From: Sideroxydans lithotrophicus ES-1
GTDB lineage: Bacteria; Pseudomonadota; Gammaproteobacteria; Burkholderiales; Gallionellaceae
DNA: 64,000 bases
Reading direction: 5' to 3'
Assembly: GCF_000025705.1 (NCBI RefSeq)
Contig: NC_013959.1
Coordinates: 2,488,001-2,552,000 of the forward strand
A program made the position numbers and the translations under genes. The stretch's first letter is position 1; every line of letters begins with the position of its first letter. Under the pieces are notes generated by a model. It ran no database searches. It was given only the letters and a program-made list of their open reading frames with translations, and had not been told where the DNA came from. Below are positions 15,198 through 33,069 of this stretch, piece by piece.

Positions 15198-15232
15198 CTT
15201 TAAAGCTCCTTAAGTGTAGGTTGGTTTCGTCA

Positions 15233-15831: not shown

Positions 15832-15838
15832 AACTTAC

Positions 15839-18214
15839 TTATTTCCCGGCAGTTCCTTTCTCGGCCAGTCTGCGCCATGTCTCGACGACCGTATCCGGAT
15901 TCAGCGACATGGTCTGGATACCTTCCTCCATCAGCCATTGCGCGAAATCAAAATGATCGGACGGGCCCTGTCCGCAGATGCCGACGTATTTATCCAGGCG
16001 GTTGCAAGTGGAGATGGCCATCCTCAGCAGCGCCTTCACCGCGCCATCGCGTTCGTCGAAACGGTCCGCCACCAGGCTGGAGTCCCGATCCAGTCCCAGA
16101 GTCAGTTGCGTAAGGTCGTTGGAGCCGATGGAGAAGCCGTCAAAGTATTGCAGGAACTCTTCCGCCAGCAGCGCGTTGGAAGGTATCTCGCACATCATGA
16201 TCAGGCGCAATCCCTTTTCGCCGCGCTTGAGTCCGTTCTTTTCCAGCGTGGCGACGACCTCGCGCGCCTCACCCACAGTACGCACGAACGGGATCATCAG
16301 TTCGACATTGGTATAACCGAGCTTCTCGCGCACACGCTTCATGGCACGGCATTCCAGTTCAAAACAATCGCTGAAGTTCGCCGCGACATAACGCCCGGCA
16401 CCGCGGAAGCCGATCATCGGGTTCTCTTCCATCGGTTCGTAGATCTCGCCGCCCAGCAATTTGCGGTATTCGTTCGACTTGAAGTCGGACAGGCGCACGA
16501 TGACCGGTTTGGGCCAGAACGCGGCCGCCAGCGTGGACACGCCCTCGACGATCTTCTCCACATAGAACTCGACCGGGTCGGCATAGCCTGCCGCACGCTG
16601 CATCACCGCGTCGTGCAACTTGCCCGGCAGTTTGTTGTGTTCCAGCACCGCCTTGGGGTGGATGCCGATCAGGTTGTTGATGATGAATTCGAGGCGGGCC
16701 AGTCCCACGCCGGCAGACGGCAGTTGCGCGAACTCGAACGCCAGCGTGGGATTGCCGACGTTGAGCATCAGCTTGACCGGGATCGGCGGCAACGCGGCTT
16801 CGCTGTGGAACACCACTTCGAACTCCAGCTTGCCGTGGTAGACGTAGCCGGTATCGCCTTCGGCGCAGGATGCGGTCACGGTCTCGCCATCCTGCAGTGC
16901 CGTCGTCGCATCGCCACAACCGACGATGGCCGGGATGCCCAGTTCGCGCGCGATGATGGCGGCATGGCAGGTGCGCCCGCCGCGATTGGTGATGATGGCA
17001 GACGCCTTCTTCATCACCGGCTCCCAGTTGGGATCGGTCATGTCAGTGACCAGCACATCGCCCGCCTGCACCTTGTCCATCTCGGCGGTACTGGCGACGA
17101 TGCGCACGCGGCCCGCACCGATCTTCTGGCCGATGGCACGGCCTTCGACCAGCACGTCGCCGCGCTGTTTCAATTTGTATTTCTCGGTGCCGCCGGCGGA
17201 GGCATTCGACTTCACCGTCTCGGGCCGCGCCTGCAGGATGTAGAGCTTGCCGTCGAGGCCGTCCTTGCCCCACTCGATGTCCATCGGCCGACCGTAATGC
17301 TGTTCGATGGAAACGGCGTAGCGCGCCAGTTGCAGCACGTCCGCATCGTTGAGCGAGAAACGCGACTGCTCGGCCGCGGGCACGCTCTCGATGCGCGTGG
17401 AACGCCCGGCGGAGCGTTGTTCGTCGAACACCATGCGCTGCAGTTTGGAACCCAGGCTGCGGCGTATCACGGCAGGAAAACCTGCCGCGAGCTGCGGCTT
17501 GTGCACGTAGAACTCGTCCGGGTTGACCGATCCCTGCACCACCATCTCACCCAGACCGTAGGACGAGGTGATGAACACCGCATCGCGGAAGCCGGACTCG
17601 GTGTCCAGCGTGAACATCACGCCGGAGGCGCCCAGGTCGGAACGCACCATGCGCTGCACGCCCGCCGACAGTGCCACGTCGGCATGGGTGAAGTCCTTGT
17701 GCACGCGGTAGGAGATGGCGCGGTCGTTATACAGCGAGGCGAACACTTCGCGGATCGCATGCAGGATGTTGTCGATGCCGTGGATGTTGAGGAAGGTCTC
17801 CTGCTGTCCGGCGAACGAGGCGTCCGGCAGGTCTTCCGCGGTGGCCGATGAGCGCACCGCGAAACTGCCCTCGCCTTCACTGGACAATTTTGCATAATGC
17901 TGGCGTATCTCCTCTTCCAGCTGCTTCGGCAGCGGCGCCTCGACGATCCAGCCGCGTATCGTGCGGCCTGCCTCGGCCAGCGCCGTGACGTCTTCCACAT
18001 CCAGCTTTTCCAGCGCCTGTTCGATGCGCTTGTCCAGTCCGCCATGCGCCAGAAAATCGCGATAGGCTTGCGCCGTGGTGGCGAATCCGCCGGGCACGAG
18101 CACACCGGAGGAACTCAGGTTGGAAATCATCTCGCCGAGCGATGCGTTCTTTCCGCCCACTTCCGGGATGTTTGCGATACCCAGAGACTGGAAAGGAATG
18201 ACGTAGGGTTGCAT
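15839..18214 (-). CDS. ppsA: phosphoenolpyruvate synthase (PpsA)
   Basis: This 791-residue enzyme converts pyruvate, ATP and water to PEP, AMP and phosphate. The ATP-grasp domain is N-terminal (begins [11 protein letters not shown]). The swivelling phospho-His domain carries [14 protein letters not shown] near residue 418. The C-terminal PEP/pyruvate barrel ends with the catalytic Cys in GICGQGPSD near residue 746. The length is normal. It follows the rnf genes on the same strand with an 86-nt gap, and its regulator gene ppsR lies beyond the other end of the rnf-nifJ run. It is therefore placed to turn pyruvate from NifJ into PEP. Phosphorylation by PpsR is the expected control. Confidence 0.96.
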
Positions 18215-18300
18215 GGACTTCTCCTGTGTTGTTGAACTACGTTTCAGATACCTTCACCGGCCCTGCCGGCACAAAAATCTTCCGGTCGCAAAAACAGCGG

Positions 18301-18486
18301 TCAGTGCGCCTTCCTCTTGCATTCCGCTTCGCCGCATTTATGGTTGCCGCAGCCGCAACCTTCGCCTTCCTCGCGCACTGCGCCGAACTCCGGATGGCCT
18401 GCGGCAAAGCGCCGGGCGGCAGCGCGCACCAGCAGCCAGCCCGCCAGCAAGGCGAGCAGTATCAATATGGTCCTGACGTAGATCAT
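18301..18486 (-). CDS. small Cys-rich membrane protein at the end of the rnf operon
   Basis: A 61-residue protein whose ATG overlaps the rnfA stop (ATGA). It has one N-terminal membrane helix (about residues 4-24), a basic stretch, then a Cys-rich tail GCGCGNHKCGEAEC with five Cys. That tail recalls the small FeoB-associated Cys-rich membrane proteins and could bind a metal or Fe-S cluster. It is not one of the six standard Rnf subunits. Overlap with rnfA argues that it is translated with the complex and may be an accessory electron carrier or assembly factor; this is inference. Confidence 0.72.
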   Translation of the reverse strand: MIYVRTILILLALLAGWLLVRAAARRFAAGHPEFGAVREEGEGCGCGNHKCGEAECKRKAH

Positions 18487-19070
18487 TCGCCACCTCCCAG
18501 TCCGGCAAAACCCATGAACGTCAGCGACAGCAATCCCGCCAGGATCAAGGACAGCGCGGTGCCCTGCACCAGTGTCGGTACGTTGGAAAGCTGCAGCCGT
18601 TCGCGCAGCGAGGCCATCAACACCAGCGCCAGAGTGAAACCCGCGCCGCCGCCGGAAGCGAACGCCAGCGATTGCGTGAAGTTGTAGTCGCGCGCGGTCT
18701 GGAACAGCGCCACGCCCAGCACCGCGCAGTTGGTGGTGATCAGCGGCAGGTAGATGCCGAGCGCGCGGAACAGCGCCGGGCTGTATTTCTTCATCACCAT
18801 CTCCACCAGCTGCACCGAGGAGGCGATCACCACGATGTAGGAGATCAGGCGCAGAAATTCGAGATGGAAATAGCCCAGCAACAGGTTCAGCCCGTAGGCG
18901 CACAACGATGCCACCAGCATCACGAACGTCGTCGCCACACCCATCGGGAAGGCGGTGCCCAAACGGCCCGACACGCCGAGGAACGGACACAGGCCGAGGA
19001 ACATCGCCAGCACGAAGTTGTTGGTGAGCAGCGTGCTGATGAATATCTGGCTTACAGACTCATGCCCCAT
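18483..19070 (-). CDS. rnfA: Rnf complex subunit A
   Basis: This 195-residue integral membrane subunit has about six helices and the typical segments TNNFVLAMFLGLCPFLGVS and TTNCAVLGVAL, whose Cys residues are thought to hold a Fe-S centre between RnfA and RnfE. Rnf couples ferredoxin:NAD electron transfer to ion movement across the inner membrane. The start overlaps rnfE by 11 nt. Confidence 0.95.
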   Translation of the reverse strand: MGHESVSQIFISTLLTNNFVLAMFLGLCPFLGVSGRLGTAFPMGVATTFVMLVASLCAYGLNLLLGYFHLEFLRLISYIVVIASSVQLVEMVMKKYSPALFRALGIYLPLITTNCAVLGVALFQTARDYNFTQSLAFASGGGAGFTLALVLMASLRERLQLSNVPTLVQGTALSLILAGLLSLTFMGFAGLGGGE

Positions 19071-19707
19071 GATGATGCCCTCCTTCCGTTGCCGGTTTGC
19101 CGCGGAACAGCGCGAACAGCAGCAGCCAGCCGCCCAGCACGAAGAAGCCGCCCGGCGGCAACACCATCACCACCCAGGGCTGGAAATGCTCGCCGAACAG
19201 CGAGATGCCGAACAGCTTGCCCGCCCCCAGGATCTCGCGCGTGCCGCCGAGTGTGAACAGGCCGATGGTGAAACCGACCCCCATGCCGAGCGCATTGACC
19301 ACGGCCTTGAGCGGCGGATTCTTGGAGGCGTGCGCTTCGGCGCGGCCGAGGATGATGCAGTTCACCACGATCAGCTGGATGAATGCGCCCAGCGCTTCGT
19401 ACAGTTTCAGGCTGGTCGCCTGGATCAGGTAGTCGACCAGCGTGACAAAGGTGGCGATGATGACGATGTAGGTGGCGATGCGCACCTCCTTCGGCACCAG
19501 GTTGCGGATCAGCGAGATCAGGAAGCAGGAGCTGGTCAGCACGAAGGTGGTGGCGGCTCCCATCGACAGCCCGTTGACCGCGGAGACGGTGACGGCCAGT
19601 GTCGGGCACATGCCCAGCACCATCACGAACACCGGGTTCTGGCGCCACACGCCTTCCATGAAGGTATCGAAAGTGATCGACTCGTCGGCTTGATTGGGCA
19701 GGCTCAT
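19060..19707 (-). CDS. rnfE: Rnf complex subunit E
   Basis: This 215-residue membrane subunit is homologous to RnfA: NPVFVMVLGMCPTLAVT and VNCIILGRAEA carry the paired conserved Cys. About six helices; the C-terminus ends in a His-rich tail (GGHHHGA). The ATG overlaps the rnfG stop (ATGA). Function is as part of the membrane core of Rnf. Confidence 0.95.
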   Translation of the reverse strand: MSLPNQADESITFDTFMEGVWRQNPVFVMVLGMCPTLAVTVSAVNGLSMGAATTFVLTSSCFLISLIRNLVPKEVRIATYIVIIATFVTLVDYLIQATSLKLYEALGAFIQLIVVNCIILGRAEAHASKNPPLKAVVNALGMGVGFTIGLFTLGGTREILGAGKLFGISLFGEHFQPWVVMVLPPGGFFVLGGWLLLFALFRGKPATEGGHHHGA

Positions 19708-20378
19708 GGTTTCAACTCCCCGATATGTGGGAACAGCTTGGGCAGCAGTTTCTGTGCGCTCTCGTTGATGCCGCGTCCGACCGCCTTGGACGTGATCGTG
19801 GCACCGGCGATCGCGTCGATCTGCCATGGATCGGATTTGGTGCCGTGCTTGACGGTCTTCACCTCGTTGGCCAATGCGGTCAGCTCGCTGTTGACGCGCA
19901 CATCGAGCGCCTCGAAGTTCTTCAGGAACGCCTGGTCGGTGATGATCCTGTCGCCGATGCCGGGCGTCTCGCGCATCGACACCACACTGATGCCGATGAT
20001 GCACTGGCACTTCACGTCATAGCCGTAGAGCAGGCGCACCATGTCGGCGTAGCCCTTGCTTGCAGCCTCGGCGGCAATGCCCTTGAGTGCGCCGGACTGG
20101 TCATAGGCTGCATAGAACTTGATGCCGCCCGGCGGAACCGTCCCGTCTGCCATCGGCTGGATGCCCGCGGCTGTCGCGGCATATTCGCGCATGGTCGCCG
20201 CACCCGGCAGAACCTTGAACACGGCACGCTCGACCATGATGCGCTTGTTCTCGGCGATGGGCGCCTTGGTACTCTCGAATGCGCCGACGATGAGCACGCC
20301 GCAGATGCTGGCGACCAGCACCATGGTGAGGATCATCTTGCTGCCGGGTGTCGTCTGGATGTCGGTGGGTTCGCTCAT
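19704..20378 (-). CDS. rnfG: Rnf complex subunit G (flavoprotein)
   Basis: This 224-residue protein has one N-terminal membrane helix (about 14-34) and a periplasmic FMN-binding domain. The covalent flavinylation motif is visible as AIAGATITSKAV, the Thr being the FMN attachment site. ATG at 20378 overlaps the rnfD stop by 4 nt; longer upstream frames are shadows. It passes electrons between RnfD and the cytoplasmic Fe-S subunits. Confidence 0.94.
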   Translation of the reverse strand: MSEPTDIQTTPGSKMILTMVLVASICGVLIVGAFESTKAPIAENKRIMVERAVFKVLPGAATMREYAATAAGIQPMADGTVPPGGIKFYAAYDQSGALKGIAAEAASKGYADMVRLLYGYDVKCQCIIGISVVSMRETPGIGDRIITDQAFLKNFEALDVRVNSELTALANEVKTVKHGTKSDPWQIDAIAGATITSKAVGRGINESAQKLLPKLFPHIGELKP

Positions 20379-21406
20379 TTCTGCCTCTTCTGGCGGGTAC
20401 CGAACACGCGCGGCTGTGTATAGCGGTCGATGAACGGCGACATCGCGTTGCCCAGCAGGATGGCGTACATGACCCCCTCGGTCAGTCCGCCGAAATAACG
20501 GATCATCACCGTCACCACGCCGATGACCGCGCCGTAGATCCATACCCCCACCGGTGTCACCGGCGATGTCGCCATGTCGCTCGCCATGTACACCGCCCCC
20601 AGCATCAGGCCGCCGGACAGCAATACGAACGACGGCGACGGATAGTGGCTCGGATCGTACAACTGGAACATCCACGCGGTGAATGCCGCCGAGGCCAGCA
20701 CTGCCACGGGGATGCGCCAGTCCATGAACTTGCGCGCGGCGAGATACATGCCGCACACCAGGATGAGGATGGCCGAGGTCTCGCCGGTGGACGCGGTCAC
20801 CGCACCGCTCAACAGGTCATGCGCAGTAGCGGTGACGTTCTCGAACTTCCAGCGCGCCAGCGGTGTCGCGCCGGTGAAGGCATCCACGCTCTGCAGCTTG
20901 ATCCAGGCGGCGATGTCGGGCGGTATCATCAGCGGCGCAGTGAGCGTGCTGGGGATGAATTCGCTGAAGCGCTGCGTGGAGAAGGCCGGCGACCAGGTGG
21001 TGATGGCGACCGGGAAGGCCGCTTGCACGAACGCGCGCCCGATCAGTGCCGGGTTGAACACGTTGAAGCCCAGCCCGCCGAACAGCGCCTTGCCGATGGC
21101 GATGGCGACGAATCCGGCCACCACGCCCATCCATAATGGAAAGGTCGGCGGCAACGTCAGTGCCAACAGGATGCCGGTGATGGCCGCGCTCCAGTCGTTC
21201 AGCGTGCTCGGGGCAGAACGGTTGAGCAGGCGTTCGGTGAGCAGGCAGGTCGCGGTGACCGTGAGCAGCAAGGCCAGCGCCGACAGGCCGTATTGCCAGA
21301 TCGCAAACGCACAGATCGGCAGCATCGACAGCACCACATGCTTCATGATGGTGGGGACGCTGCGGTCGCTGACTTGGTGGGGTGAAGTGCGAAGTTCGAT
21401 GCTCAT
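20375..21406 (-). CDS. rnfD: Rnf complex subunit D (flavoprotein)
   Basis: This 343-residue subunit has about nine to ten helices and the flavinylation motif SVDAFTGATPLA, where Thr carries FMN. The segment LFGGLGFNVFNPALIGRAF is typical of RnfD/NqrB. It overlaps rnfC by 4 nt (ATGA). It forms part of the ion-translocating core. Confidence 0.95.
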   Translation of the reverse strand: MSIELRTSPHQVSDRSVPTIMKHVVLSMLPICAFAIWQYGLSALALLLTVTATCLLTERLLNRSAPSTLNDWSAAITGILLALTLPPTFPLWMGVVAGFVAIAIGKALFGGLGFNVFNPALIGRAFVQAAFPVAITTWSPAFSTQRFSEFIPSTLTAPLMIPPDIAAWIKLQSVDAFTGATPLARWKFENVTATAHDLLSGAVTASTGETSAILILVCGMYLAARKFMDWRIPVAVLASAAFTAWMFQLYDPSHYPSPSFVLLSGGLMLGAVYMASDMATSPVTPVGVWIYGAVIGVVTVMIRYFGGLTEGVMYAILLGNAMSPFIDRYTQPRVFGTRQKRQK

Positions 21407-22746
21407 GCTGCGGATGCTTTCTCACGATTCACAGCCTTGGCGATGCGGAATTGCTGCACCAGCGGGATGTGCGACGGGCAGACATAGCTGCAGCAGCCGC
21501 ACTCGAAACAGCGATCCAGATTGTAGCGCTCGGCCATTTCCTCATATTCACGCTTGGCTGCCAGCAATCCCAGTTGCGACGGGTTGAGAAACTTGGGGCA
21601 GACCTTGAGGCATTCGCCGCACTTGATGCAGGAATAGACCTTGGGCGCTTCCTCGGGCAGTTGCGCCCTGCCGAACGCGAGCACACCCGAGGTGCCCTTG
21701 GTCACCGGCACGTCCAGCGACGAGATGGTCATGCCCATCATCGGGCCGCCAAGGATGATCTCGCTTGCATTGCTCTTCGCGCCAACCTGTTCCAGCAGGA
21801 AACGCAACGGTGTGCCGATCGGCACGATGTAGTTGCCGGGCTTTTCCACTGCAGGGCCGGCCACGGTCAGCACGCGTTCGACGATGCCCTCACCGGCAGG
21901 CAACAGGCGGCCGAGATAGGCCAGCGTCATCACGTTGTTCACCAGCACGCCTATCGAGGCGGGACGCTGGCCGGCGGGGATCTCGCGCCCGAGCAGTGCA
22001 TAGATGATGGTGTCTTCCGCGCCTTGCGGGTATTTGGTCTCCAGCGCCTTCACCGTGACCGTGCCATCAAGCGGCAATGCGGCCTCGATCGCGGCGATAG
22101 CATCCGGTTTGTTGTCTTCCACGCCGATCACCGCGCGCGGCGCGCCGCTGGCCTGCATGGCAAAACGTATCCCGCGCAACAGGTCCTGCGTGCGCTCCAC
22201 CATGATGCGATGGTCGCAGGTGAGGAAGGGTTCGCATTCCGCCCCGTTCACCACCAGCGTGTCGATCGCAGTCTCCGGCGGGACATTGAGCTTGACGTGC
22301 GCCGGGAAGGTCGCACCGCCCAGGCCGGAGATGCCGGTCTGCTGGATTGCTTCCAGCAGCTCTTTCTTGCCGAGGGATTCGACATCGCGCGGTGTGCGTA
22401 CCTGCACTTCCTGGCTGTCGGCTTCGTACACGCGGATGGTGATCGATTCCACCATCTTGCCGTTGGCCGCCAGCGACACGCCGATGTCCTCCACCACGCC
22501 GGTGGCGGGAGCATGGACCGGCAGCGAGACGAAACCGTCCGCAGTGGCGATGACTTCGCCGCGCACCACTTCCTGGCCGACGTTCACGCAGCATACGGCA
22601 GGTTTACCGATGTGCTGCGACAGCGGCACGATCAGCCGCGGTGCGAACGCCATGCGGCGTATCGGCAAACTTCCGGTCTCCTTGTGGTAGGCCGGATGGA
22701 TGCCGTGCTCGAAGGTCGCGGCGCGTTTGAAGAATGGCAGTCGCAT
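21403..22746 (-). CDS. rnfC: Rnf complex subunit C (NADH-binding, Fe-S)
   Basis: This 447-residue protein has the N-terminal biotinyl-lipoyl-like fold, an NADH/FMN-binding region (GISGLGGATFPAHVKL, NGAECEPFLTCD), and two C-terminal [4Fe-4S] motifs (CIKCGECLKVCP and CFECGCCSYVCP). It is the site where NAD(H) meets the complex. It begins one base after the nifJ stop, so both are almost certainly on one mRNA. Confidence 0.96.
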   Translation of the reverse strand: MRLPFFKRAATFEHGIHPAYHKETGSLPIRRMAFAPRLIVPLSQHIGKPAVCCVNVGQEVVRGEVIATADGFVSLPVHAPATGVVEDIGVSLAANGKMVESITIRVYEADSQEVQVRTPRDVESLGKKELLEAIQQTGISGLGGATFPAHVKLNVPPETAIDTLVVNGAECEPFLTCDHRIMVERTQDLLRGIRFAMQASGAPRAVIGVEDNKPDAIAAIEAALPLDGTVTVKALETKYPQGAEDTIIYALLGREIPAGQRPASIGVLVNNVMTLAYLGRLLPAGEGIVERVLTVAGPAVEKPGNYIVPIGTPLRFLLEQVGAKSNASEIILGGPMMGMTISSLDVPVTKGTSGVLAFGRAQLPEEAPKVYSCIKCGECLKVCPKFLNPSQLGLLAAKREYEEMAERYNLDRCFECGCCSYVCPSHIPLVQQFRIAKAVNREKASAA

Positions 22747-22747
22747 A

Positions 22748-25700
22748 TCAGTTGAACTTGGCGGCGCGCAGTTTCAGCTTGTCCAGGTTCGGCTCGCTCA
22801 TGTTCCATGGGGTGCCGGGGTGGATGACACTCGCCGTGCATTTCTCCGCCGCCTTAACAAGGTCAAGATAACTGCCCGCCTTCGGGTCGATGATGACGAT
22901 CTTCTTCGCTTCATTGTAGGAAAATATCTTCGGGTTGATGTGGATACATTCGTCGCATGCGGTACATTCCGGCGTATCGACCCATGCCGGTTCATAGCCG
23001 TCCGCTGCCGCTGCAGCTGGTACCGGAGCCGCTGCGGCAGGCGCTGCCGGTTGCGGTGCATCGCTGGAGCTGATGCCGAGACCGGCCGAAAGTTTCTGGA
23101 TCAGTTCCTGGCGCACGCGGTTGGCGATGGCGACCTCATCGACTTGCGGACGGCTGATGCCGGCCACGTCCTTGAGCTGATGCCAGAACTGCAGGCGTTC
23201 TTCGCAGGAACGCACCATCTCCACCGACGTGAGCACGCGCACCAGACGGTTCTTCTTGTCCACCGACCAGATGAACGGGAACTTGCCTTCGCGCTCGCCT
23301 TCCGGGAGCTTGAGGAAATCGCCCAGCAGCACCATGTCCTCGTTCCAGGTCTCCGGCGGCGCTTTCTTGAACTGCTTGGCGAAGCGCCCCTCGCTCAGGG
23401 CGAAATCGGCGAACGTCATCGGCAGCGTCATCGATTTCCTGTCGCCTTTCTCATCCGCGTACTCGAGCGTATAGGTCGGCCAGTCGGCATCCAGCGACGG
23501 ATTGCCTTCCAGCGTGACGCAGTCGGAGAAGGTCACCCCCAGATCGGGGTTGTAACGGAACAGCGGGAAGGCGCGCGATTCCACCGCCATCTTGCTTTGC
23601 GCCACGGCGCTGTTGTCGCCCACACCGTGTTCCGGCGGACATACGGCGTACACGTTGAACAGTGCCGGACGGCGGCTGTTGAGACCGTCGATGAAACTTT
23701 CCAGCAGGTGCGTGGTGTTGGCCAGCGAACCTTGCGCCACGAACGAAGTGCGGTGCGCCATGCCGATGACGCTGATCTCCTTGCGCTTCTCGGTCTTGCC
23801 ATGCTTGCTGGCGCCGTACGGCGACATGTCCGCCACCTGGCCGATGAAGCCGGAGGTGCAGGCCTGGCCGCCAGTGTTGGAATACACCTGGGTATCGACG
23901 ATCAGTATCTTGATCGGCTTGCCCGCCATCAATGCGCGCGACAGGTTCTGGAAACCGATATCGAACATCGCGCCGTCACCACCCAGCGCCACGACCGGCG
24001 GACACAGGTGCCATTCCTCCTCGCTCAGCTGTTCCCAGTTGAAGCGCGAGAAGAACTCGTCGTTCGCGTCCGGATCGTAACCGCCCGCCAGTTCCATCTC
24101 GGCCATGCGCACGTCCTTGAAGCCTTCCACCATCTTGGCCATATGACCTTCGAACACGCCCATCGCCACCGAGGGCGAATCCTGGAACAGGTGTGAGGTC
24201 CACGGGAACGGGTAGGGATTGAACGGGAAAGTGGACGACCACACCGAGGTGCAGCCGGTGGAGTTGACCATGCCCATCTCGGCGCGGCCCTTCTTGCTCG
24301 GGCCTTCCATGTAACGCCAGCGCAGGTCCTTGAGTTTTTCCAGCATCTGGCTCACGCGTTTCAGCCATTGCGGGTCAATCGGTTGGCCCGGATGTTTCGC
24401 CAGCAGGCTTTCCGTCAGGTTCGCCAGCGTCAGGTCGTGCCCGGCGTTCGCCTGCACTGCCTGCATCAGCCCCTTGGTATCGGTGAGATCCACCGTGGCG
24501 CTGAGCTTCATGCGAATGTGGTTCTCGAGGCCGTCGATCAGCGCATCCAGCTTGCCGAGGAACTTCTTCACGCGCGGTTGCTGCAGCGCGGTGACGGTGC
24601 TGGTGAACAGGTGGATAGTTCCTTTTTCGCCGCAGCCCAGACAGGCGCCGTCGCCGCTGACCATGGACTGGTAGTTGTGCTTGTCGAGCAGCAGCGTTTC
24701 CAGCGCACCCACCTTCTCGTCCAGATCGTCGATGCGGCTGAATTGCGGCGGCGTGGTCGGCAGGTCGAGCCAGAAGTTCCAGTCGTCGCGCAAGGTCTCG
24801 ATGCTTTCCTTGGTCTGCGTGACCATGGTCAGCGCGTTGTCGCCGCACACTTCCACGCACAGGGCGCAACCCTTGCAGGTATAGGGGTTGACGGTGATGG
24901 AGAAGAGTCCGCCGGCGCCTTTTTCCTTCTTCTCTTTCTGCGTCCAGTACGGCTTGGTGGTGGCGAACTTGAAGCCGCCGATCTGCTCGCGCAGCAGGTT
25001 CAATTCGGCTTCCAGACGTCCGCGATCATCGCCTTGCGTGCCGTCTTCGGCGAAGGCTTCGGTGATGGCATTGGCCAGCAGCGCGCTCACATCGAGGCCG
25101 TCCTTGTCCAGCATCTTGCGCAGTTTCTTGTCGACGACGCGGCTGAACTTGCGCAGGAAGCGGGTCGGATGCCCGCCGATCTCGATCTTCTGGATCGCGG
25201 TGTTGAGTACGTCGGCGGTGGTGGTGACCAGGCCCGGGATCGCGCTGTCCGGACATTGCGTGAAGCACTCGCCGCAGGCGGTGCAGTTCTCGGCATGCCA
25301 CTGCGGATGCTCGAAACGCACGCCGGTCATGTCGCGATACACGCCGGTGACGGCAGGAATGACAGACAACCCCATGAACGGATCGACCAGGTTGTCCGAG
25401 CCCTGCCCCTTCATGTAGAAGCTGCCAGTCTGCTCCCAGAAACGATGCACGTCGGAGATGCCGCCGTCGCCTTCCGGCAGCCGCTTGAGCATGACCGGCA
25501 ATGCGGGTGCGGGTTTGCCTGTAGCTTTGGCGCGCTGGCCGACTTTCATCTGCTCCGGTTTGATCTCGAAGATCTCTTCATAACCGCGGCGCACCACACG
25601 CAGATTGTCGTCGACGATGCGCTTGCCCTTCTTGCCGAATTTGTGTTCGAGCTGGTTCTCGATGGCGGTGAACAAGGTCTCTTCGCTCAACCCGGCACGC

Positions 25701-27685
25701 TCCTTCACATCGGAGGCACGGAAGAAAGCGCCCTGGAAGGCGTTGCCCTGCATGCGCAACTGCAGATCCGGATTGCTGGATTCTTCGCGCGCGATCTTGA
25801 ACGCATCCAGGTAGAACACGCGGATCTTCTTGTCCACGATGTATTTCTGCGTCTGCATCGGGAGGGTCTCCCACAAGGCCTCTGCGCTGCCCAGATTGCT
25901 CTGGATGATGAACACGCCGCCTGCACGCATTCCTTCCAGTGCATTGGTATGTCCGAACACTTGCGGATCGGGCGACAGCACCACGTCGACGTTGGTGTAT
26001 TCGCAGTTGATGCGGATCGGCTCCGGCGCGGCAGACAGATAATAAGTGGTCGGCTGGCCCTTCTTCTCGGAGCCGTATTTCGGATTGGCCTTGATGTCCC
26101 AGCCCAGCAGTTCGAACAGGGTCATCGCCAGGTTCTTGCCGGTGGTCACCGCACCCCAGCCGCCGATCGAGTGCATGCGCACGGCGATGGCGTTCTTCGG
26201 CAGCAGGTTCGGGTTCTCCGAGCCGCGCAGCGCCAGATCCTTGATGTGCGGATAGGCCGCCTGCAATTCCTGCTGGCGGATCTCCTGTTTCGGATTGGCC
26301 GATTCGGCGCGCACGAAATCCACCGACAGGTAATAGAACTTGCGGTGCGCGGCGCCGGGCAGCATGTTCTCGACGGCGGCGATCAGGCCTTCCGGTTGCA
26401 GGTCGCGCGAACCGAGTCCATAGCAACCGGAATACAGCGAAGGCATGTCCTTGGCGCTTTCGTAGGTGGCGTAATCGGCATAGGAATTCTCGCGCGCATT
26501 CTCCATGCACTTGGTCACGGTGGAGCGCACTTCACGCATCAGCGGCAGGTCTTCCGACAACGGCTGGTCGGTACGTTCCAGCACTGCGACGCCCTTCTTG
26601 CCCTTGAGTACCTGGCCCAGCAGTTCGCCGGGGAAAGGCCGGAACATGGTGATGTTGACCACACCCACCTTGATCTTGCGGTTCTCGCGCATCCAGTCGG
26701 CAACGGCTGCGGCTTGCACGGTCATGCTGCCCTGGCCGAGGATGACATAGTCCGCATCGTCGCAACGATAGGCATCGACGCGGCTGTAGCGGCGTCCGGT
26801 GAGCGACTGGAACTCTTCCGCATTCTTGTCGAACAGCGCGGGTATGTGGTCGAAGAAATACGGACGCTGCGCCGCCACTGCCTGCATGTAGGCATCCTGG
26901 TTCTGCACCACCCCGGTCTGCATCGGGTTGTCCACATCCCAATTGGCCGGCACGCGGCGGCGTTTGGGGCCGTACAGCATCTGCTGCGCAGGCGTCGGCG
27001 TATCGATGATGTCGTCGGCATTGCCGAGGTATTCGGCGATCAGTTCGCGTTCCGGCACCAGCATCGGCTCGATCAGGTGCGTGGTGAGGAAACCGTCCTG
27101 CGCGACGATGGCCGGAGTGAGCGCCAGTTCGGCGGTCTTGCGCGCGATCATGTTGAGGTCGGCGGCTTCCTGCGCGTTCTTCGCCATCACCTGGATGAAA
27201 CCGGTATCGTCGGCGCAATGGTAGTCGTCATGCGCGCAATGCACGTTGAGCGAGGCCTTGGTGATGGCGCGACAGCCGAGGTTGAGCACGTAGGTCAGGC
27301 GCTTGCCGACCGCCGCATACAGCGATTCGTGCATGAAGGCCAGACCCTGCGACGAGGTGAAGTTGACCGCACGCAGGCCGGTCATGGACAGCCCTGCGGT
27401 AACACCCGCAGCCGCATGTTCGGATTCCGGCTCGACAAAGATCAGCGGATGACCTGCCGTGTTGAGATGCCCCTTGGCCACCTCTTCCGCCCAGTATTCG
27501 CCCATCTGCGTGGACGGCGTGATGGGGTAAGCACCTGCACCCTGCGAGGCTTCGCGCTCCACCATGATCACGGCGGTGTTGCCGTCGATGGCATCGCGCA
27601 CGCCGGGATATTTGTATTTGGTGTGGCCGCCTTCCGTGCTAGTGGCTGCGCCGATCAGTTTGAATTGCTTGAGTTTGTTCAACAT
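22748..27685 (-). CDS. nifJ: pyruvate:ferredoxin (flavodoxin) oxidoreductase, extended 1645-aa form
   Basis: This is a single-chain PFOR that interconverts pyruvate plus CoA with acetyl-CoA, CO2 and reduced ferredoxin. Visible parts are the N-terminal pyrimidine-binding domain (DGNTAVIMVE, GAYPITPSTQM), the gamma domain near 500 (MHSIGGWGAVTTGKN), a two-cluster ferredoxin domain (CTACGECFTQCP near 800; CKGCALCVEVC near 935), and the TPP/Fe-S domain (GDGACLGCGEKG near 1010; STGCTS near 1143; GDGAMFDIGFQN near 1237; NTGGQA). About 450 residues exceed the usual 1170-1200. The end has an Ala/Pro linker near 1540-1560 and a ferredoxin-like domain (CTACDEC). It lies inside the rnf operon, between rnfB and rnfC. 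Confidence 0.95.
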   Translation of the reverse strand: MLNKLKQFKLIGAATSTEGGHTKYKYPGVRDAIDGNTAVIMVEREASQGAGAYPITPSTQMGEYWAEEVAKGHLNTAGHPLIFVEPESEHAAAGVTAGLSMTGLRAVNFTSSQGLAFMHESLYAAVGKRLTYVLNLGCRAITKASLNVHCAHDDYHCADDTGFIQVMAKNAQEAADLNMIARKTAELALTPAIVAQDGFLTTHLIEPMLVPERELIAEYLGNADDIIDTPTPAQQMLYGPKRRRVPANWDVDNPMQTGVVQNQDAYMQAVAAQRPYFFDHIPALFDKNAEEFQSLTGRRYSRVDAYRCDDADYVILGQGSMTVQAAAVADWMRENRKIKVGVVNITMFRPFPGELLGQVLKGKKGVAVLERTDQPLSEDLPLMREVRSTVTKCMENARENSYADYATYESAKDMPSLYSGCYGLGSRDLQPEGLIAAVENMLPGAAHRKFYYLSVDFVRAESANPKQEIRQQELQAAYPHIKDLALRGSENPNLLPKNAIAVRMHSIGGWGAVTTGKNLAMTLFELLGWDIKANPKYGSEKKGQPTTYYLSAAPEPIRINCEYTNVDVVLSPDPQVFGHTNALEGMRAGGVFIIQSNLGSAEALWETLPMQTQKYIVDKKIRVFYLDAFKIAREESSNPDLQLRMQGNAFQGAFFRASDVKERAGLSEETLFTAIENQLEHKFGKKGKRIVDDNLRVVRRGYEEIFEIKPEQMKVGQRAKATGKPAPALPVMLKRLPEGDGGISDVHRFWEQTGSFYMKGQGSDNLVDPFMGLSVIPAVTGVYRDMTGVRFEHPQWHAENCTACGECFTQCPDSAIPGLVTTTADVLNTAIQKIEIGGHPTRFLRKFSRVVDKKLRKMLDKDGLDVSALLANAITEAFAEDGTQGDDRGRLEAELNLLREQIGGFKFATTKPYWTQKEKKEKGAGGLFSITVNPYTCKGCALCVEVCGDNALTMVTQTKESIETLRDDWNFWLDLPTTPPQFSRIDDLDEKVGALETLLLDKHNYQSMVSGDGACLGCGEKGTIHLFTSTVTALQQPRVKKFLGKLDALIDGLENHIRMKLSATVDLTDTKGLMQAVQANAGHDLTLANLTESLLAKHPGQPIDPQWLKRVSQMLEKLKDLRWRYMEGPSKKGRAEMGMVNSTGCTSVWSSTFPFNPYPFPWTSHLFQDSPSVAMGVFEGHMAKMVEGFKDVRMAEMELAGGYDPDANDEFFSRFNWEQLSEEEWHLCPPVVALGGDGAMFDIGFQNLSRALMAGKPIKILIVDTQVYSNTGGQACTSGFIGQVADMSPYGASKHGKTEKRKEISVIGMAHRTSFVAQGSLANTTHLLESFIDGLNSRRPALFNVYAVCPPEHGVGDNSAVAQSKMAVESRAFPLFRYNPDLGVTFSDCVTLEGNPSLDADWPTYTLEYADEKGDRKSMTLPMTFADFALSEGRFAKQFKKAPPETWNEDMVLLGDFLKLPEGEREGKFPFIWSVDKKNRLVRVLTSVEMVRSCEERLQFWHQLKDVAGISRPQVDEVAIANRVRQELIQKLSAGLGISSSDAPQPAAPAAAAPVPAAAAADGYEPAWVDTPECTACDECIHINPKIFSYNEAKKIVIIDPKAGSYLDLVKAAEKCTASVIHPGTPWNMSEPNLDKLKLRAAKFN

Positions 27686-27693
27686 GATATCCC

Positions 27694-28575
27694 CTATGCC
27701 TCTATGTCTGCAGGTAATGGTTCGGTACGGATGATCTTTTTGGCTGACTTGCCCTTGATGATGCGGTCGCCCTCGATCCAGACGATGGCACCGGTGGGAC
27801 AGCGTTCGATCGCCTCGCGGCTGGCGCTGCCGTTCTTGCCGTAATCGATGACGGCAAGGTTATGCTCCAGATGGATCAGGCCCGGCGCCGCATCGGCCAC
27901 ACAGCGCCCGCAAGCGGTACAGGCCACTTCGCAGGCGGCTTCCGCCGCATCGGGGTCGTCCTCATTGCGGCAGGCCAGCCACAGTTTGTGCGATACGCCC
28001 TGGATCGAGAACAGATCCTTCGGGCAGATATCGACGCAATCGCCGCAGGCCGTGCATTTGGCGATGTCCACGACAGGCAGGCCGTAACTGTCCATATGTA
28101 TGGCATCGAAATCGCACACATCGGCACAATCGCCCAAGCCCAGACAGCCCCAGGCACAGCTCTTGCCGCCGCCGCCCGCCACTGCCGCAGCACGGCAGGA
28201 AGGAAGCCCGGCGTAATTTGCGCGCATCCTGGCGACGTGCTTGCCGCCGGCGCAGGCCAGACGTGCCACGCGTTTCTCGACATCGCCCATGGCGACACCC
28301 AATAACGCGGCGATCTTCTTGTTCTGTTCGGGAGTGTTGACGCTGCAGCGGGCCGGTTCGATCTTGCCGGCGACCGCCTGTTCGGCGAAGTTACGGCAGC
28401 CTGCCGTGCCGCAGGCGCCACAATTGGAATGGGGGAGCAGTTCTTCGACCTGGTCGATCCTGGGGTCTTCGTAGACAAACAGCCGCTTGCTGGCGATCGC
28501 CAGCAATAGTGCCAGCAAACCGCCCAAGCCGGCCATGAATAGCCCCGTGACTATGATGCTGTATATAGTACCCAT
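27694..28575 (-). CDS. rnfB: Rnf complex subunit B (Fe-S, ferredoxin-interacting)
   Basis: A 293-residue protein with an N-terminal membrane helix (about 5-29) and a four-Cys cluster motif (C52, C55, C60, C77). It then has an unusually Cys-rich ferredoxin region: SCAWGCLGLGDC, CTACGDCVDICP, CEVACTACGRC and ERCPTGAI. The high Cys content matches the long clostridial-type RnfB rather than the short E. coli RsxB. It is the expected contact for ferredoxin. ATG at 28575 has GGGAGAGAC upstream; the longer frame to 28635 lacks such a site. It leads the operon and ends 8 nt before nifJ. Confidence 0.93.
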   Translation of the reverse strand: MGTIYSIIVTGLFMAGLGGLLALLLAIASKRLFVYEDPRIDQVEELLPHSNCGACGTAGCRNFAEQAVAGKIEPARCSVNTPEQNKKIAALLGVAMGDVEKRVARLACAGGKHVARMRANYAGLPSCRAAAVAGGGGKSCAWGCLGLGDCADVCDFDAIHMDSYGLPVVDIAKCTACGDCVDICPKDLFSIQGVSHKLWLACRNEDDPDAAEAACEVACTACGRCVADAAPGLIHLEHNLAVIDYGKNGSASREAIERCPTGAIVWIEGDRIIKGKSAKKIIRTEPLPADIEA

Positions 28576-28735
28576 GTCTCTCCCCGCTTCAATAAATCCG
28601 CGCACAGAAGCGAAAATTCGCTCTGTATTCGCCAACTTATCAACGCCCCACCAAGCGTCAGGTGAATCACAAAACCATTTAAAAATTACTGTTTTTATTT
28701 GGTCGCAGGTTAAACCAAGCTACAATCATTTCGCG

Positions 28736-28769
28736 AATCAATTATTTCAATTTTGATTATTAATAATTG
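28736..28769. promoter_or_regulatory. inverted-repeat operator candidate between rnfB and the LysR gene
   Basis: CAATTATT (28739-28746) and AATAATTG (28762-28769) form an inverted repeat with 15 bases between, overlapped by AATCA (28736-28740) and TGATT (28754-28758). LysR-type proteins bind A/T-rich interrupted repeats like these beside their own gene. It lies in the 227-base divergent promoter region. Confidence 0.45.
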
Positions 28770-28802
28770 ACATATTGCAGCACCGGCAAGGGAGAGGCTG
28801 GG

Positions 28803-29750
28803 ATGAACACCGAAAAACAAAGTTATTACAAGAACAATCGCCTGAAACAGATGCGCGCATTTTGTGAGGTCGTTCACACCGGCAGTATCACCGTGGCCGC
28901 ACAAAAGCTGTTCTTGAGCCAACCTTCCGTAACCTTGCAGATCCAGGCGATGGAGCGCGAATTGGGCGTAACCGTGTTCGAACGTCGAGGTCCCGTGTTG
29001 AAGCTTACTCCTGATGGAGAAACTTTGTATACCCTTGCGAAACCGCTGGTGGAAGGGATAGACAGCCTGGAAGAGAACTTCGCCGCGCAGCATGGCAAAC
29101 TGGACTCGGGCGAATTGAACATCGGCGCAGGCGAATCCACCATCCTGTACATCCTGCCGGAAGCGGTGCGCAGATTCGTCACTGCGCATCCGCGCATCCA
29201 GCTGAAGATCCACAACGAGACCGGCCGCGACGGCCTGAAGATGCTGCGTAACGACGAGATCGACCTGGTTGTCGGATCGATGCTCGACGTGCCCGACGAC
29301 ATCACTTACCAGCCGGTGGTGACGTTCGACCCGGCACTGATCGTCCCGCTCGGCCACCCGCTGGCAAAACTCAGCGAGGTGACCCTGGAAGACATCAGCC
29401 AGTACGGCTTGATCCTGCCGCCGCGCCATCTCTCGACCTGGCGCATGGTCAAGTACGTGTTCCAGCAGAATAACCTGACCTTTACCGTGACGCTGGAGGC
29501 AGGCGGCTGGGAAGTGATCAAGAAATATGTCGAACTCGGGATGGGCATCTCCATCGTGACCGATATCTGCCTGACCGGTAGCGAGAAACTGGTGCGTATC
29601 CCGCTCACCCAGTATTTCCCGCAGCGCGGCTACGGCCTGGTGCTACGCAAGGGCCGCTTCCTGTCGCCGCAGGCGCGGCGCTTCGTCGAGATACTGAACG
29701 AGGTCTACGGCATCAAGCCGGGGGCCGCCGAACTCAGCGCTCGAGATTGA
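28803..29750 (+). CDS. LysR-family transcriptional regulator
   Basis: This 315-residue protein has an N-terminal winged helix-turn-helix (RAFCEVVHTGSITVAAQKL, then SQPSVTLQIQAMEREL) and a C-terminal periplasmic-binding-like effector domain (GELNIGAGESTILYILPEA, GWEVIKKYVELGMGISIV). It resembles the CysB/CbbR branch. It is divergent from rnfB, and by the usual LysR rule is the likely regulator of the rnf-nifJ operon. Its 3' end overlaps the convergent ppsR gene by 17 nt. The ATG at 28803 follows GGGAGAGG; the frame is open back to 28767. The effector is unknown. Confidence 0.9.
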   Translation: MNTEKQSYYKNNRLKQMRAFCEVVHTGSITVAAQKLFLSQPSVTLQIQAMERELGVTVFERRGPVLKLTPDGETLYTLAKPLVEGIDSLEENFAAQHGKLDSGELNIGAGESTILYILPEAVRRFVTAHPRIQLKIHNETGRDGLKMLRNDEIDLVVGSMLDVPDDITYQPVVTFDPALIVPLGHPLAKLSEVTLEDISQYGLILPPRHLSTWRMVKYVFQQNNLTFTVTLEAGGWEVIKKYVELGMGISIVTDICLTGSEKLVRIPLTQYFPQRGYGLVLRKGRFLSPQARRFVEILNEVYGIKPGAAELSARD

Positions 29751-30549
29751 GTTCCTGCATCAGTTGCACGGCCAGCTCTTCGATGGAACGCGCAGTGGTG
29801 TCGAACCATTTGATGCCTTCGCGCCGCATCAGCTTTTCCGCTGCAGCGACTTCATAGCGGCAATTTTCCAGCGAAGCATATTTGCTGTGGGGGCGGCGCT
29901 CGTTGCGGATGCGGTGCAGTTGCTCCGGCGCGATGGTCAGCCCGAACAATTTGCTGCGGTAAGGCAGCAGTCTCGACGGCAGATGATCGCGTTCGAAGTC
30001 TTCCGGGATCAGCGGATAGTTGGCCGCCTTCAGCGAGAACTGCAGCGACAGATACAGGCTGGTCGGCGTCTTGCCGCTGCGCGACACCCCCACCAGGATG
30101 ATGTCTGCACTCTTCAGGTCGGTATCCGAAACGCCGTCGTCGTGCGCCAGCGCAAAATTCATGGCGGCGATGCGCGAGTTGTATTCCGGATTGGCATGCC
30201 CGTGCGAACGGCCCACCGCACGCGTGTAGCGCGCATCGAGTTCCTGCTCCAGCGGCACGATGAAGGCATCGAACAGGTCGATGAAGAATGCGTCGGCCTG
30301 GTGCAGGATCCCGCTGAGTTCGGCATTGGTTTGCGTCATGATGACGATGGGGCGGGTGCCTTCGCGCTGGCAGACTTCATTGATGCGCGCCAGACAGTCC
30401 CTTACCTTGTCTTCGCTGTCCAGGAAGGGGAAACGCAAAGGCCGGAACTCGATCCCCTCGAATTGCGACAGCAAACCGTGCCCCAATGTTTCTGCGGTGA
30501 TACCCGTGCCGTCCGACACGTAGATGACGGTGCGTTTCTGAGTCGCCAT
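29734..30549 (-). CDS. ppsR: PEP synthase regulatory kinase/pyrophosphorylase (PpsR, DUF299)
   Basis: This 271-residue protein begins TVIYVSDGTGITAETLG, the DUF299 signature, and has a P-loop GVSRSGKTPTSLYL near residue 153, followed by ANYPLIPEDFERDHLP. Family members inactivate PEP synthase by ADP-dependent phosphorylation of an active-site Thr and reactivate it by phosphate-dependent removal. The target ppsA is about 11 kb away at the far end of the rnf-nifJ run. It is convergent with the LysR gene. Confidence 0.95.
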   Translation of the reverse strand: MATQKRTVIYVSDGTGITAETLGHGLLSQFEGIEFRPLRFPFLDSEDKVRDCLARINEVCQREGTRPIVIMTQTNAELSGILHQADAFFIDLFDAFIVPLEQELDARYTRAVGRSHGHANPEYNSRIAAMNFALAHDDGVSDTDLKSADIILVGVSRSGKTPTSLYLSLQFSLKAANYPLIPEDFERDHLPSRLLPYRSKLFGLTIAPEQLHRIRNERRPHSKYASLENCRYEVAAAEKLMRREGIKWFDTTARSIEELAVQLMQELNLER

Positions 30550-30634: not shown

Positions 30635-32716
30635 TCAATTGGTTTTGACGTCTCTTTCCAGATTCGGATAACGCACGTGGTCGACCATGTCCTGTACCTG
30701 CTTGTCCGGCGCAGCTGTCAGCAGGCTGCCGACGATCACACCGACAAATCCGACCGCCATGCCGAAGACACCGGCCGAGATCGGATTGATGTCCCACCAC
30801 AGCGGGGCATTCACGCCGAAGAACGGGTAAGTGATGTACATATAGAACATGCAGGTGAACAAACCGCCCACCATGCCCAGGATCGCTCCGGTCTTGTTGG
30901 CCCGTTTCCAGAACACCCCCAGCGCCAGCGCCGGAAAGAACGCCGAAGCAGCCAGCGAGAATGCCGCGCAGACCAGGAACAGGATGTGGCCGGGCTTGAG
31001 CGAAGTGATATAGGCCGCGAACACCGCCACCCCCAGCAGCAAGGCCTTGGAGATGAACAGGCGACGCCCCGTCGGAGCTTTCGGGTCGATCATCTTGTAG
31101 TACACGTCATGCGACAGCGAGTTGGAGATGGTCAGCATCAGGCCATCGGCTGTGGATAGTGCCGCTGCCAGTCCCCCGGCCGCCACCAGCGCGGTGACCA
31201 CATAGGGCAAGCCGGCGATCTCCGGCGTCGCCAGCACGATCAGGTCGCCGCCGATAGTGACCTCGGCCAGTTGCACGATGCCATCATGGTTGACGTCGGT
31301 CACGCTCATCAGCGATTTGTCCACGGATGCCCAGGCCGAGACCCAGCTGGGCAGTTCGGAGAAGCTGGACCCTACCAGCAGGGTGTATACATCATACTTG
31401 GCCAGTACCGCCAGGGCGGGTGCGGTGATGTAAAGCAGGGAGATGAAGAACAGCGACCAGAACACCGATTTGCGCGCTTCCTTCACCGAAGTGGTGGTGT
31501 AGAAACGCATCAGGATATGCGGCAAGGCTGCAGTTCCGACCATCAGGCACAACACCAGTGCCATGAAATTCTTGCGCTTGTTGTCGCGCGTCTTCTCGTC
31601 GGGGCCCGCGAACGGTTCGGCATGCGCGATGATCGGACCGGACTTGGCCTTGTCCGTTTCTGCTTCCTGGCGCCATTTGCGGTGGGCGGTCGCAACGTCC
31701 GGCGGCCAATCGGCCACCGCCCGGTCCGCCGCTGCGAGCGCTTTTGGATCGCTATCGTGCCTTGCCTTCAGCTCGGCTGCCGCCTTGACCAACTGTTCCT
31801 TTTCTTTGGCAAGATAGCTGCCGCCTCCTGCGTCGAGCGCCTTCAATTCGTCCTCGGCTGATTTCTCGCGTTGCTTGAAGATGGCGCGCACTTCGGCTTC
31901 GCGCGCACCGTCCGGCGTGGTCGGGTCGTTCAACACCTGTTCGCGCGCCGTCACCTTTTGCAGCACATAGCCATAGGCGACCTGCGGAACAGGATTGCCG
32001 GTGTGTTTCATGGATAGCCAGATCACCGGGATCATGTAGGCCACGATCAGAATGACGTATTGCGAAACCTGCGTCCAGGTCACCGCGCGCATGCCGCCCA
32101 GGAAAGAGCACACCAGGATGCTGCCCAGTCCGACGAACACGCCCACGCCGAAATCCAGCCCGGTGAAGCGACTGGTGATCAGCCCCACACCATATATCTG
32201 CGCGATCACATAGGTGAACGAGCACAGGATCGCCGCAAATACGCCGATGGTGCGCGGGATGCTGCCGCCATAACGGGCGCCGAGGAAATCCGGGATGGTG
32301 AATTGTCCGAACTTGCGCAGGTATGGAGCCAGCAGCAAGGCCACCAGCACGAAGCCCCCGGTCCATCCCAGCACGAAGGCCAGCCCGTCGTAACCGGACA
32401 AGTACAGGGTGCCTGCCAGGCCGATGAAACTGGCCGCCGACATCCAGTCGGCGCCCACCGCCATGCCGTTGAAGAATGCCGGCACGCGCCGGCCGGCCAC
32501 ATAATATTCGGCGACGTCGGAGGTCCGGGAAAGTATGCCGATCCCCGCATACAGCAACGCCGTCACACCGAGGAAGATGTAGCCCAGTATCTTGTTGGGT
32601 ACTCCCATCTGCTCGAGGATGGACAGCGAGACGACGAAACCGATGAACCCGCCCGTGTACAGGGCATAGTAACGCTTGAGTTGCGAGACGAATCTCGATT
32701 GCGCCGGCGCTGCCAT
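30635..32716 (-). CDS. sodium/solute symporter (VC_2705-type SSS family)
   Basis: A 693-residue permease with about 13 membrane helices and the SSS signatures EYYVAGRRVPAFFNGMA, GADWMSAASFIGLAG and ALSTADGLMLTISNSLSHD. A hydrophilic, helix-rich insert of about 120 residues (about 255-375, including KEKEQLVKAAAELKARHD) interrupts the core. Family members import acetate or other short carboxylates. ATG at 32716 shares one base with the stop of the DUF4212 gene (TGATG); an upstream GTG is less likely. A divergent TctDE-like two-component system suggests substrate-dependent control. Confidence 0.9.
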   Translation of the reverse strand: MAAPAQSRFVSQLKRYYALYTGGFIGFVVSLSILEQMGVPNKILGYIFLGVTALLYAGIGILSRTSDVAEYYVAGRRVPAFFNGMAVGADWMSAASFIGLAGTLYLSGYDGLAFVLGWTGGFVLVALLLAPYLRKFGQFTIPDFLGARYGGSIPRTIGVFAAILCSFTYVIAQIYGVGLITSRFTGLDFGVGVFVGLGSILVCSFLGGMRAVTWTQVSQYVILIVAYMIPVIWLSMKHTGNPVPQVAYGYVLQKVTAREQVLNDPTTPDGAREAEVRAIFKQREKSAEDELKALDAGGGSYLAKEKEQLVKAAAELKARHDSDPKALAAADRAVADWPPDVATAHRKWRQEAETDKAKSGPIIAHAEPFAGPDEKTRDNKRKNFMALVLCLMVGTAALPHILMRFYTTTSVKEARKSVFWSLFFISLLYITAPALAVLAKYDVYTLLVGSSFSELPSWVSAWASVDKSLMSVTDVNHDGIVQLAEVTIGGDLIVLATPEIAGLPYVVTALVAAGGLAAALSTADGLMLTISNSLSHDVYYKMIDPKAPTGRRLFISKALLLGVAVFAAYITSLKPGHILFLVCAAFSLAASAFFPALALGVFWKRANKTGAILGMVGGLFTCMFYMYITYPFFGVNAPLWWDINPISAGVFGMAVGFVGVIVGSLLTAAPDKQVQDMVDHVRYPNLERDVKTN

Positions 32717-32979: not shown

Positions 32980-33069
32980 GTCATCGCCTGTTGTTAAGTG
33001 AAGTTTACCCTGTCCCGCCGGACCGCAGCTTGGACAAATATCCGCTTCCACTTAGAATAGCCGCATAAA

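Follow-up and report, generated by a model that had tools for sequence, protein, structure and literature searches.

A candidate Rnf complex with a dedicated pyruvate:ferredoxin oxidoreductase, encoded in one operon of Sideroxydans lithotrophicus ES-1

The genome of Sideroxydans lithotrophicus ES-1 carries a minus-strand run of nine genes: rnfB, a gene for a pyruvate:ferredoxin oxidoreductase (PFOR), rnfC, rnfD, rnfG, rnfE, rnfA, a gene for a 61-amino-acid (aa) cysteine-rich protein, and ppsA. The run lies in a 64,000-base stretch, here called the window, which covers positions 2488001 to 2552000 of the single-contig genome of 3,003,656 bases. Reading from sequence, we propose, with a probability of about 0.68, that this operon encodes a specialised Rnf complex with the PFOR as its dedicated 2-oxoacid partner, most likely working in ES-1 mainly as an ion-driven pyruvate synthase that feeds the phosphoenolpyruvate (PEP) synthase PpsA. 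The proposal builds on the gene order and its conservation, the domain make-up of the PFOR, its active-site and cluster residues, a separate branch of Rnf proteins, and a relative of the PFOR that has been retained in a catalytically dead state.

A divergent PFOR between rnfB and rnfC

The PFOR has its POR_N, PFOR_II, POR, Fer4 and TPP domains (Pfam) all in one chain, followed by a Fer4_13 domain. A preliminary description of this DNA had labelled the gene nifJ; the domains agree with that label as far as PFOR goes, but the product is not an ordinary NifJ. It is a divergent PFOR of 1645 aa with a C-terminal ferredoxin, it scores 419.7 bits against the NifJ equivalog cut-off of 911.35 (TIGR02176), and it shows 27% identity to six ordinary NifJ proteins of the same bacterial family. 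Its score, size and low identity rule out ordinary NifJ as a full description. The nearest solved protein to the fused ferredoxin is ferredoxin I of Desulfovibrio africanus (E 7.7e-5), a partner of the PFOR of that organism. Within the ES-1 genome, the protein is the sole match to the POR domain (PF01558).

The residues expected of a working enzyme are conserved. T31, E64 and R114 were located on a solved PFOR chain; we presume the catalytic roles of these residues, and that N996 is another of them, from PFORs in general. The check covered 115 non-identical proteins, some of them fragments. Positions equivalent to T31, E64, R114 and N996, those of the GDG motif and each of the 12 cluster cysteines were kept in 113 to 115 of them, and the four cysteines of the fused ferredoxin in 110; the rest were gaps in both cases. 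All 23 checked positions were intact together in 108 of the 115.

At least 572 stretches in a public collection encode a relative, and the counts of public loci given here are on the best 80. The preliminary description had suggested searching other genomes for a PFOR gene inserted between rnfB and rnfC, and that search bore the arrangement out: rnfB lies directly before the PFOR gene in 80/80 loci, and rnfC directly after it in all 69 that extend more than 700 bases beyond the PFOR gene, the other 11 being too short. So consistent a flanking shows that the layout is not due to chance. In Gallionellaceae loci, rnfB precedes the PFOR gene in 30/30 and rnfC follows it in 29/30; the remaining contig breaks off within the PFOR gene. 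An exception was found in a draw over the class, where genome G398 has rnfB at the opposite end of the operon. The gene for the small cysteine-rich protein follows rnfA in 44 of the 56 public loci that include rnfA and 3 kb beyond, and a relative of the divergent LysR-type gene is in the same place in 34 of the 71 with 2.6 kb before the PFOR gene.

The PFOR is found well outside the iron oxidisers. Hosts among the best 80 include Rhodocyclus, Rubrivivax, Rhodoferax, Sulfurisoma, Thiothrix, Sedimenticola, Thiocapsa and Candidatus Venteria. The preliminary description had linked the system to life on low-energy Fe(II), and that link is not supported: the same operon in Thiocapsa, Thiothrix, Rhodocyclus, Rubrivivax, Rhodoferax and Sedimenticola rules out, on taxonomy, a system specific to Fe(II). 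In the Gallionellaceae, 109 of 150 genomes match the PFOR at E <= 0.001, many of them through ordinary NifJ or por subunits. A hand count gave 41 of the 150, ES-1 and fragments included, with the long form at >=77% identity. The draw over the class gave matches at E <= 1e-200 in 22 of 369 genomes, one of which (G485) owes its match solely to the sister form (see below); this limit misses some operons, as it did the sister one in G316. Across the phylum, a draw of 398 genomes had 3 with a match.

Some loci carry additional genes. After the small cysteine-rich protein, L106 (at 19635-20501) and 20 other loci of the series L037-L116 encode a flavoprotein reductase of 289 aa that is of the FNR/PetH/BoxA kind. 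Four Sedimenticola loci (L099, L100, L107 and L108; for example, L107:14917-15420) have a gene of the Redoxin/AhpC-TSA family, assigned by scanning the L107 copy, between the PFOR gene and rnfC, where it perhaps gives protection from oxygen. At L042:6035-8800, ppsR and the LysR gene are duplicated in tandem before rnfB.

The Rnf branch and the sister operon

All six Rnf subunits (A, B, C, D, E and G) are encoded in the operon. RnfA, RnfC, RnfD, RnfE, PpsA and PpsR all exceeded their TIGR cut-offs; RnfB (63.3 versus 68.7 bits) and RnfG (Table 1) fell slightly under theirs. The ES-1 genome holds three Rnf sets, and the RnfB proteins of the other two have 184 to 185 aa and 12 to 13 cysteines and are 26% identical to the long RnfB over the aligned part. 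These two ordinary clusters (L035 and L036, at 838-857 kb and 2411-2430 kb) adjoin genes for a sodium/hydrogen exchanger and a potassium transporter.

The first sign of a sister operon came from two genomes of the class (L146 and L150), in which a weak PFOR match stopped before the ferredoxin. Their gene order is korA, korB, a gene for a protein of 836 to 840 aa, rnfB, a gene for a PFOR-like protein of 1511 to 1564 aa, and rnfC, D, G, E and A. The PFOR-like protein aligns with the window PFOR end to end at 28%. None of 35 such proteins keeps the equivalent of T31, E64 or N996, and none has a complete GDG motif; at the proximal cluster, all four cysteines are gone from 32 of the proteins, and the other three retain a single one. 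The eight cysteines of the two other clusters are intact in 35/35.

The protein of 836 to 840 aa proved to be a second degenerate PFOR half, of 813 to 840 aa in 17 loci. It has no cysteine at the twelve cluster positions and no residue of the GDG motif, and the N996 equivalent is an asparagine in 12 of the 17; the four ferredoxin cysteines are kept in all 17. Judged by sequence, then, the two relics would keep electron carriage and lose the chemistry, which KorAB can supply: KorA was above its cut-off (TIGR03710, 507 versus 482.75 bits) and KorB under it (TIGR02177, 230 versus 261.9 bits). Apparently, these relatives have swapped in another enzyme and keep the disabled PFOR as a wire.

The order korA-korB-half-rnfB-PFOR-like gene was found in 18 of 23 sister loci, and one further contig ends early. 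In one gammaproteobacterial order, 114 of the 195 genomes searched had a match, and by hand-made lists 39 have the sister form and 99 an intact PFOR. Candidatus Sedimenticola endophacoides carries both operons (L104, with the sister copy at G994 coordinates, read as L202). In this organism a NuoF-like NADH-binding flavoprotein is encoded upstream of korA (L202:15618-17402, the copy used for the family scan), and RnfC-like matches lie at the same place in L191, L194 and L199; the flavoprotein could possibly be a second NADH entry in some sister operons.

An RnfC tree of 83 rows was built by a quick method, with SH-aLRT support only and a midpoint root; its ordinary rows all came from genomes carrying one of the two PFOR forms. 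The 37 PFOR-linked rows formed one branch (SH-aLRT 97), and the PFOR-linked and sister rows together formed one branch (SH-aLRT 100) apart from the 24 ordinary rows. Two rows that had not been labelled sister beforehand (G316 and G930) grouped with the sisters, and both come from sister operons; in G930 the dead PFOR is 11 kb away from rnfC.

Proposed electron path, direction and alternatives

The sister operon gives the strongest clue: co-regulation alone can hardly account for a disabled PFOR retained for its clusters beside rnfB and rnfC. Taken with the ferredoxin fusion, this suggests docking of the PFOR body on Rnf, with electrons passed on by way of the tethered ferredoxin. We infer the physical contact, the electron path, the ion coupling, the direction and the substrate set out here. 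Electrons would pass from NADH through RnfC, the membrane subunits and RnfB to the PFOR-tethered ferredoxin domain, and on through the Fe-S clusters to the thiamine site, with the PFOR body docked on Rnf and no need for a freely diffusing ferredoxin. The couple would be NADH versus pyruvate/acetyl-CoA plus CO2, with pyruvate as the presumed substrate, and the ion gradient would drive or harvest the electron step. Rnf is described as reversible, and NADH can reduce ferredoxin at the expense of a gradient (PMC7414866). Beside the Calvin cycle, C2 units from acetate or a storage polymer might be taken up in this way, and the system could run in reverse when oxygen is short. The preliminary description had Rnf and PFOR sharing ferredoxin; their coupling gains from the conserved order, the separate branch, the fused ferredoxin and the dead-PFOR sister, with the qualification that, under our proposal, the shared ferredoxin would be tethered rather than free.

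A broader reading, which we advance only tentatively and at somewhat less than even odds, is that these operons encode a distinct class of ion pump: an Rnf with a built-in 2-oxoacid oxidoreductase, in effect an ion-driven 2-oxoacid:NAD+ synthase without free ferredoxin. Its PFOR body would serve for docking and wiring, and in the sister form KorAB would plug in to give gradient-driven synthesis of 2-oxoglutarate in sulfur oxidisers.

As to direction, synthesis seems somewhat the better candidate for the main one in ES-1. It is favoured by the presence of ppsA in the same gene run, with ppsR and a VC_2705-type symporter beside it; by a full pyruvate dehydrogenase E1 (AceE), which serves the opposite direction; and by there being only a short isocitrate-lyase-family match in the genome. 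AceE was found in 149 of 150 Gallionellaceae genomes at E <= 0.001 and was over the cut-off in 135 of them, ES-1 included, which rules out, for this family, a PFOR standing in for a missing pyruvate dehydrogenase. In the Kentron symbionts, a highly expressed PFOR is read by the authors as carboxylating acetyl-CoA (PMC6593406).

A number of observations weigh against the proposal as a whole or against its direction. One genome of the class draw (G185) has no rnf gene found in the 14 kb beyond a partial PFOR. The decay of the sister PFORs is not total, as the R114 equivalent is kept in 22 of 35, and the sister order is loose in places: korAB and the ferredoxin-bearing half lie away from rnfB in 4 of 23 loci, and rnfC is within 3 kb in 21 of 23, the other two being L198 and L199. 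Downstream of the operon, only 16 of the 56 public loci have ppsA. One isocitrate-lyase-family match in ES-1 does exceed the Pfam cut-off (51 bits, over positions 147-253 of 526, in a 307-aa frame); it is probably another member of the superfamily and not isocitrate lyase. In the gammaproteobacterial order, isocitrate lyase is commoner in genomes with PFOR (65/99) than in those without (27/96), a comparison that ignores kinship. Isocitrate lyase was scored as present in the 92 genomes with a strong N-terminal match; a match of any kind above the Pfam cut-off occurs in 132 of the 195. G1077, which has a partial sister-like match, is missing from the PFOR lists and was counted among the genomes without PFOR. 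These counts give no support to PFOR as a marker of genomes that lack the glyoxylate shunt. ES-1 is reported to show no growth with either acetate or pyruvate as the only substrate (PMC3770913), and the sequence by itself does not fix the direction. The earlier suggestion of an ion-driven pyruvate synthase feeding PEP draws support from ppsA, ppsR and AceE and loses some through the scarcity of ppsA elsewhere and the co-occurrence with isocitrate lyase.

The same complex might work mainly the other way, which we consider a serious but rather doubtful possibility: when oxygen is scarce, pyruvate derived from glycogen stores would be oxidised to acetyl-CoA, and Rnf would reduce NAD+ while pumping ions out. 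The coexistence of PFOR with isocitrate lyase in many gammaproteobacteria points that way, as does a reductase of the FNR/BoxA kind downstream in 16 of the 56 public loci (24 have neither this reductase nor ppsA, and none has both). Pyruvate has been proposed as the donor to an Rnf of the same layout in the Solemya velum symbiont (PMC4287430), and PFOR in four Gallionellaceae genomes has been read as possibly fermentative (PMC10734482). That ppsA and ppsR stand close to the operon in betaproteobacteria and gammaproteobacteria alike argues instead for gluconeogenic use, and the reductive reading of the Kentron PFOR likewise tells against oxidation.

It is unlikely, in our judgement, that the PFOR and Rnf are co-regulated neighbours only, drawing on a general pool of soluble ferredoxin without contact. 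Operons often group a pathway whose products form no complex, and ordinary NifJ proteins use soluble ferredoxin; however, such an account has no explanation for an Rnf branch of its own, a ferredoxin fused to the PFOR, or the catalytically dead PFOR beside rnfB and rnfC. That the unit draws on pyruvate to provide nitrogenase with reduced ferredoxin is very improbable: an Rnf cluster near nitrogenase genes was so read in acidophilic Sideroxydans contigs and in ES-1 too (PMC5178258), but ES-1 has two other, ordinary Rnf clusters, the window ferredoxin is fused and not free, and some Gallionellaceae with Rnf genes are reported to have no nitrogenase genes (PMC10734462).

If the specialised Rnf-PFOR complex is real, it would bear on how aerobic and microaerophilic autotrophs get low-potential electrons for pyruvate or 2-oxoglutarate synthase: the membrane gradient would cover the cost of carboxylation, which would take place at a dedicated site. 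Such an Rnf, with its 2-oxoacid enzyme tethered, would also serve as a genome marker, and a catalytically stripped PFOR kept as a wire would be a natural experiment in how redox enzymes become subunits of an ion pump.

Locus layout and comparison with known systems

Measurement of the spacings confirmed the preliminary description's claim that the genes from rnfB to the small cysteine-rich protein overlap or lie no more than 8 nt apart: the gaps, in gene order, are 8, 1, -4, -4, -4, -11 and -4 nt. Its placing of ppsA 86 nt past the small gene was also correct, and none of the genes of the block has internal stops. The LysR gene, for which we took the ATG at 28803, is divergent from rnfB, with 167 nt between the starts, and converges with ppsR on the opposite strand, with a 17-nt overlap. 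The gene ppsR does stand just past the divergent LysR gene, as had been described; lying beyond an opposite-strand gene, it is a separate transcription unit and not part of one block with the rnf-PFOR run. The LysR-type protein is a probable regulator of the operon. The 61-aa protein matched no Pfam family. Scans of 15000-34000 and 15600-30700 found no RNA family or sigma-70 promoter at the thresholds used, and terminator-like sites in 15600-30700 were not in excess (12, versus 11.9 in shuffles).

Table 1. Coordinates of features in and beside the rnf-PFOR operon, as positions in the window
Feature	Position	Strand	Basis
rnfB, long form, 313 aa, 20 Cys	27694..28635	-	profile search
Rnf-linked PFOR, 1645 aa	22748..27685	-	POR_N, PFOR_II, POR, Fer4 motifs, TPP domain, C-terminal ferredoxin
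C-terminal single [4Fe-4S] ferredoxin domain of PFOR	22748..23008	-	Fer4_13, residues 1569-1622
rnfC, 447 aa, PFOR-linked Rnf branch	21403..22746	-	TIGR cut-off passed
rnfD	20375..21406	-	294.6 bits, cut-off 207.05
rnfG	19704..20378	-	92.5 bits, cut-off 102 (query with N-terminal extension)
rnfE	19060..19707	-	223.2 bits, cut-off 213.4
rnfA	18483..19070	-	238.1 bits, cut-off 229.3
61-aa protein, hydrophobic N-terminus and Cys-rich tail	18301..18486	-	judged by eye
ppsA, PEP synthase	15839..18214	-	TIGR01418 1157.9 bits, cut-off 739.75
Divergent LysR-type regulator	28803..29750	+	open reading frame
ppsR, PEP synthase regulatory kinase/phosphorylase	29734..30549	-	388.5 bits, cut-off 350
VC_2705-type sodium/solute symporter and its small subunit, adjoining ppsR	30635..33051	-	

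The VC_2705-type pair beside ppsR possibly imports a monocarboxylate. A second, ActP-like sodium:solute symporter is encoded at 42967-44784 (NF006903, 777 versus 750 bits, but 719 versus 1099 for the ActP equivalog), and both symporters of the window are of acetate/monocarboxylate-like kinds. Two porin-like genes lie downstream of ppsA at 12781-15197, the first confirmed by Pfam and the second recognised by a nearly identical signal peptide. At 35886-40113, some 5-10 kb from ppsR, genes for a NapC-type cytochrome, an MtrB/PioB porin and a multihaem cytochrome stand in a row that is probably the Mto Fe(II)-oxidation cluster; mtoA is given as Slit_2497 in ES-1 (PMC8788666).

Two parts of this picture are already in print: a PFOR between rnfB and rnfC (PMC4287430) and Rnf within a gene cluster of the reductive tricarboxylic acid (rTCA) cycle (PMC11636981). 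In the open-licence literature, as far as the texts available extend, neither the ferredoxin fusion nor the separate Rnf lineage nor the dead-PFOR sister turned up; subscription papers lie outside that scope, so the evidence that these are undescribed is weak. The published PFOR arrangement is the rnf2 cluster of the Solemya velum symbiont, with PFOR genes between rnfB2 and rnfC2. The sections of that report that deal with it give the position and propose pyruvate as donor; they mention neither a fused ferredoxin nor an Rnf lineage nor a dead-PFOR sister (PMC4287430). The published rTCA cluster, from the Riftia symbiont, resembles the window operon in combining a 2-oxoacid oxidoreductase and Rnf; it is described with Hdr-Flx, korABCD and pntAB, and the passages concerned do not mention a dead PFOR between rnfB and rnfC (PMC11636981). 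In the same 2024 study, a separate dimeric korAB(3) and a 'PFOR-like' gene fell together, and Rnf and the PFOR/OGOR isoforms are listed as of unknown function or direction (PMC11636981).

Compared with NifJ-type PFORs (TIGR02176; 6cin, 7plm and 1b0p), the window PFOR has the same domain order, thiamine site, pyruvate-contacting residues and three [4Fe-4S] clusters, but the solved chains have 1171 to 1232 aa against its 1645, and it differs from them in its fused ferredoxin and its place inside an rnf operon. The catalytic partner encoded in the sister operon is a KorAB 2-oxoacid oxidoreductase of the OAFO type; unlike the usual KorAB, it is encoded with rnf genes and two catalytically stripped PFOR-derived proteins. 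The ordinary proteobacterial rnfABCDGE shares all six subunits with the window operon, which differs from it in having an RnfC on a separate branch, a longer RnfB with more cysteines, the order rnfB-PFOR-CDGEA, and the additional small cysteine-rich protein.

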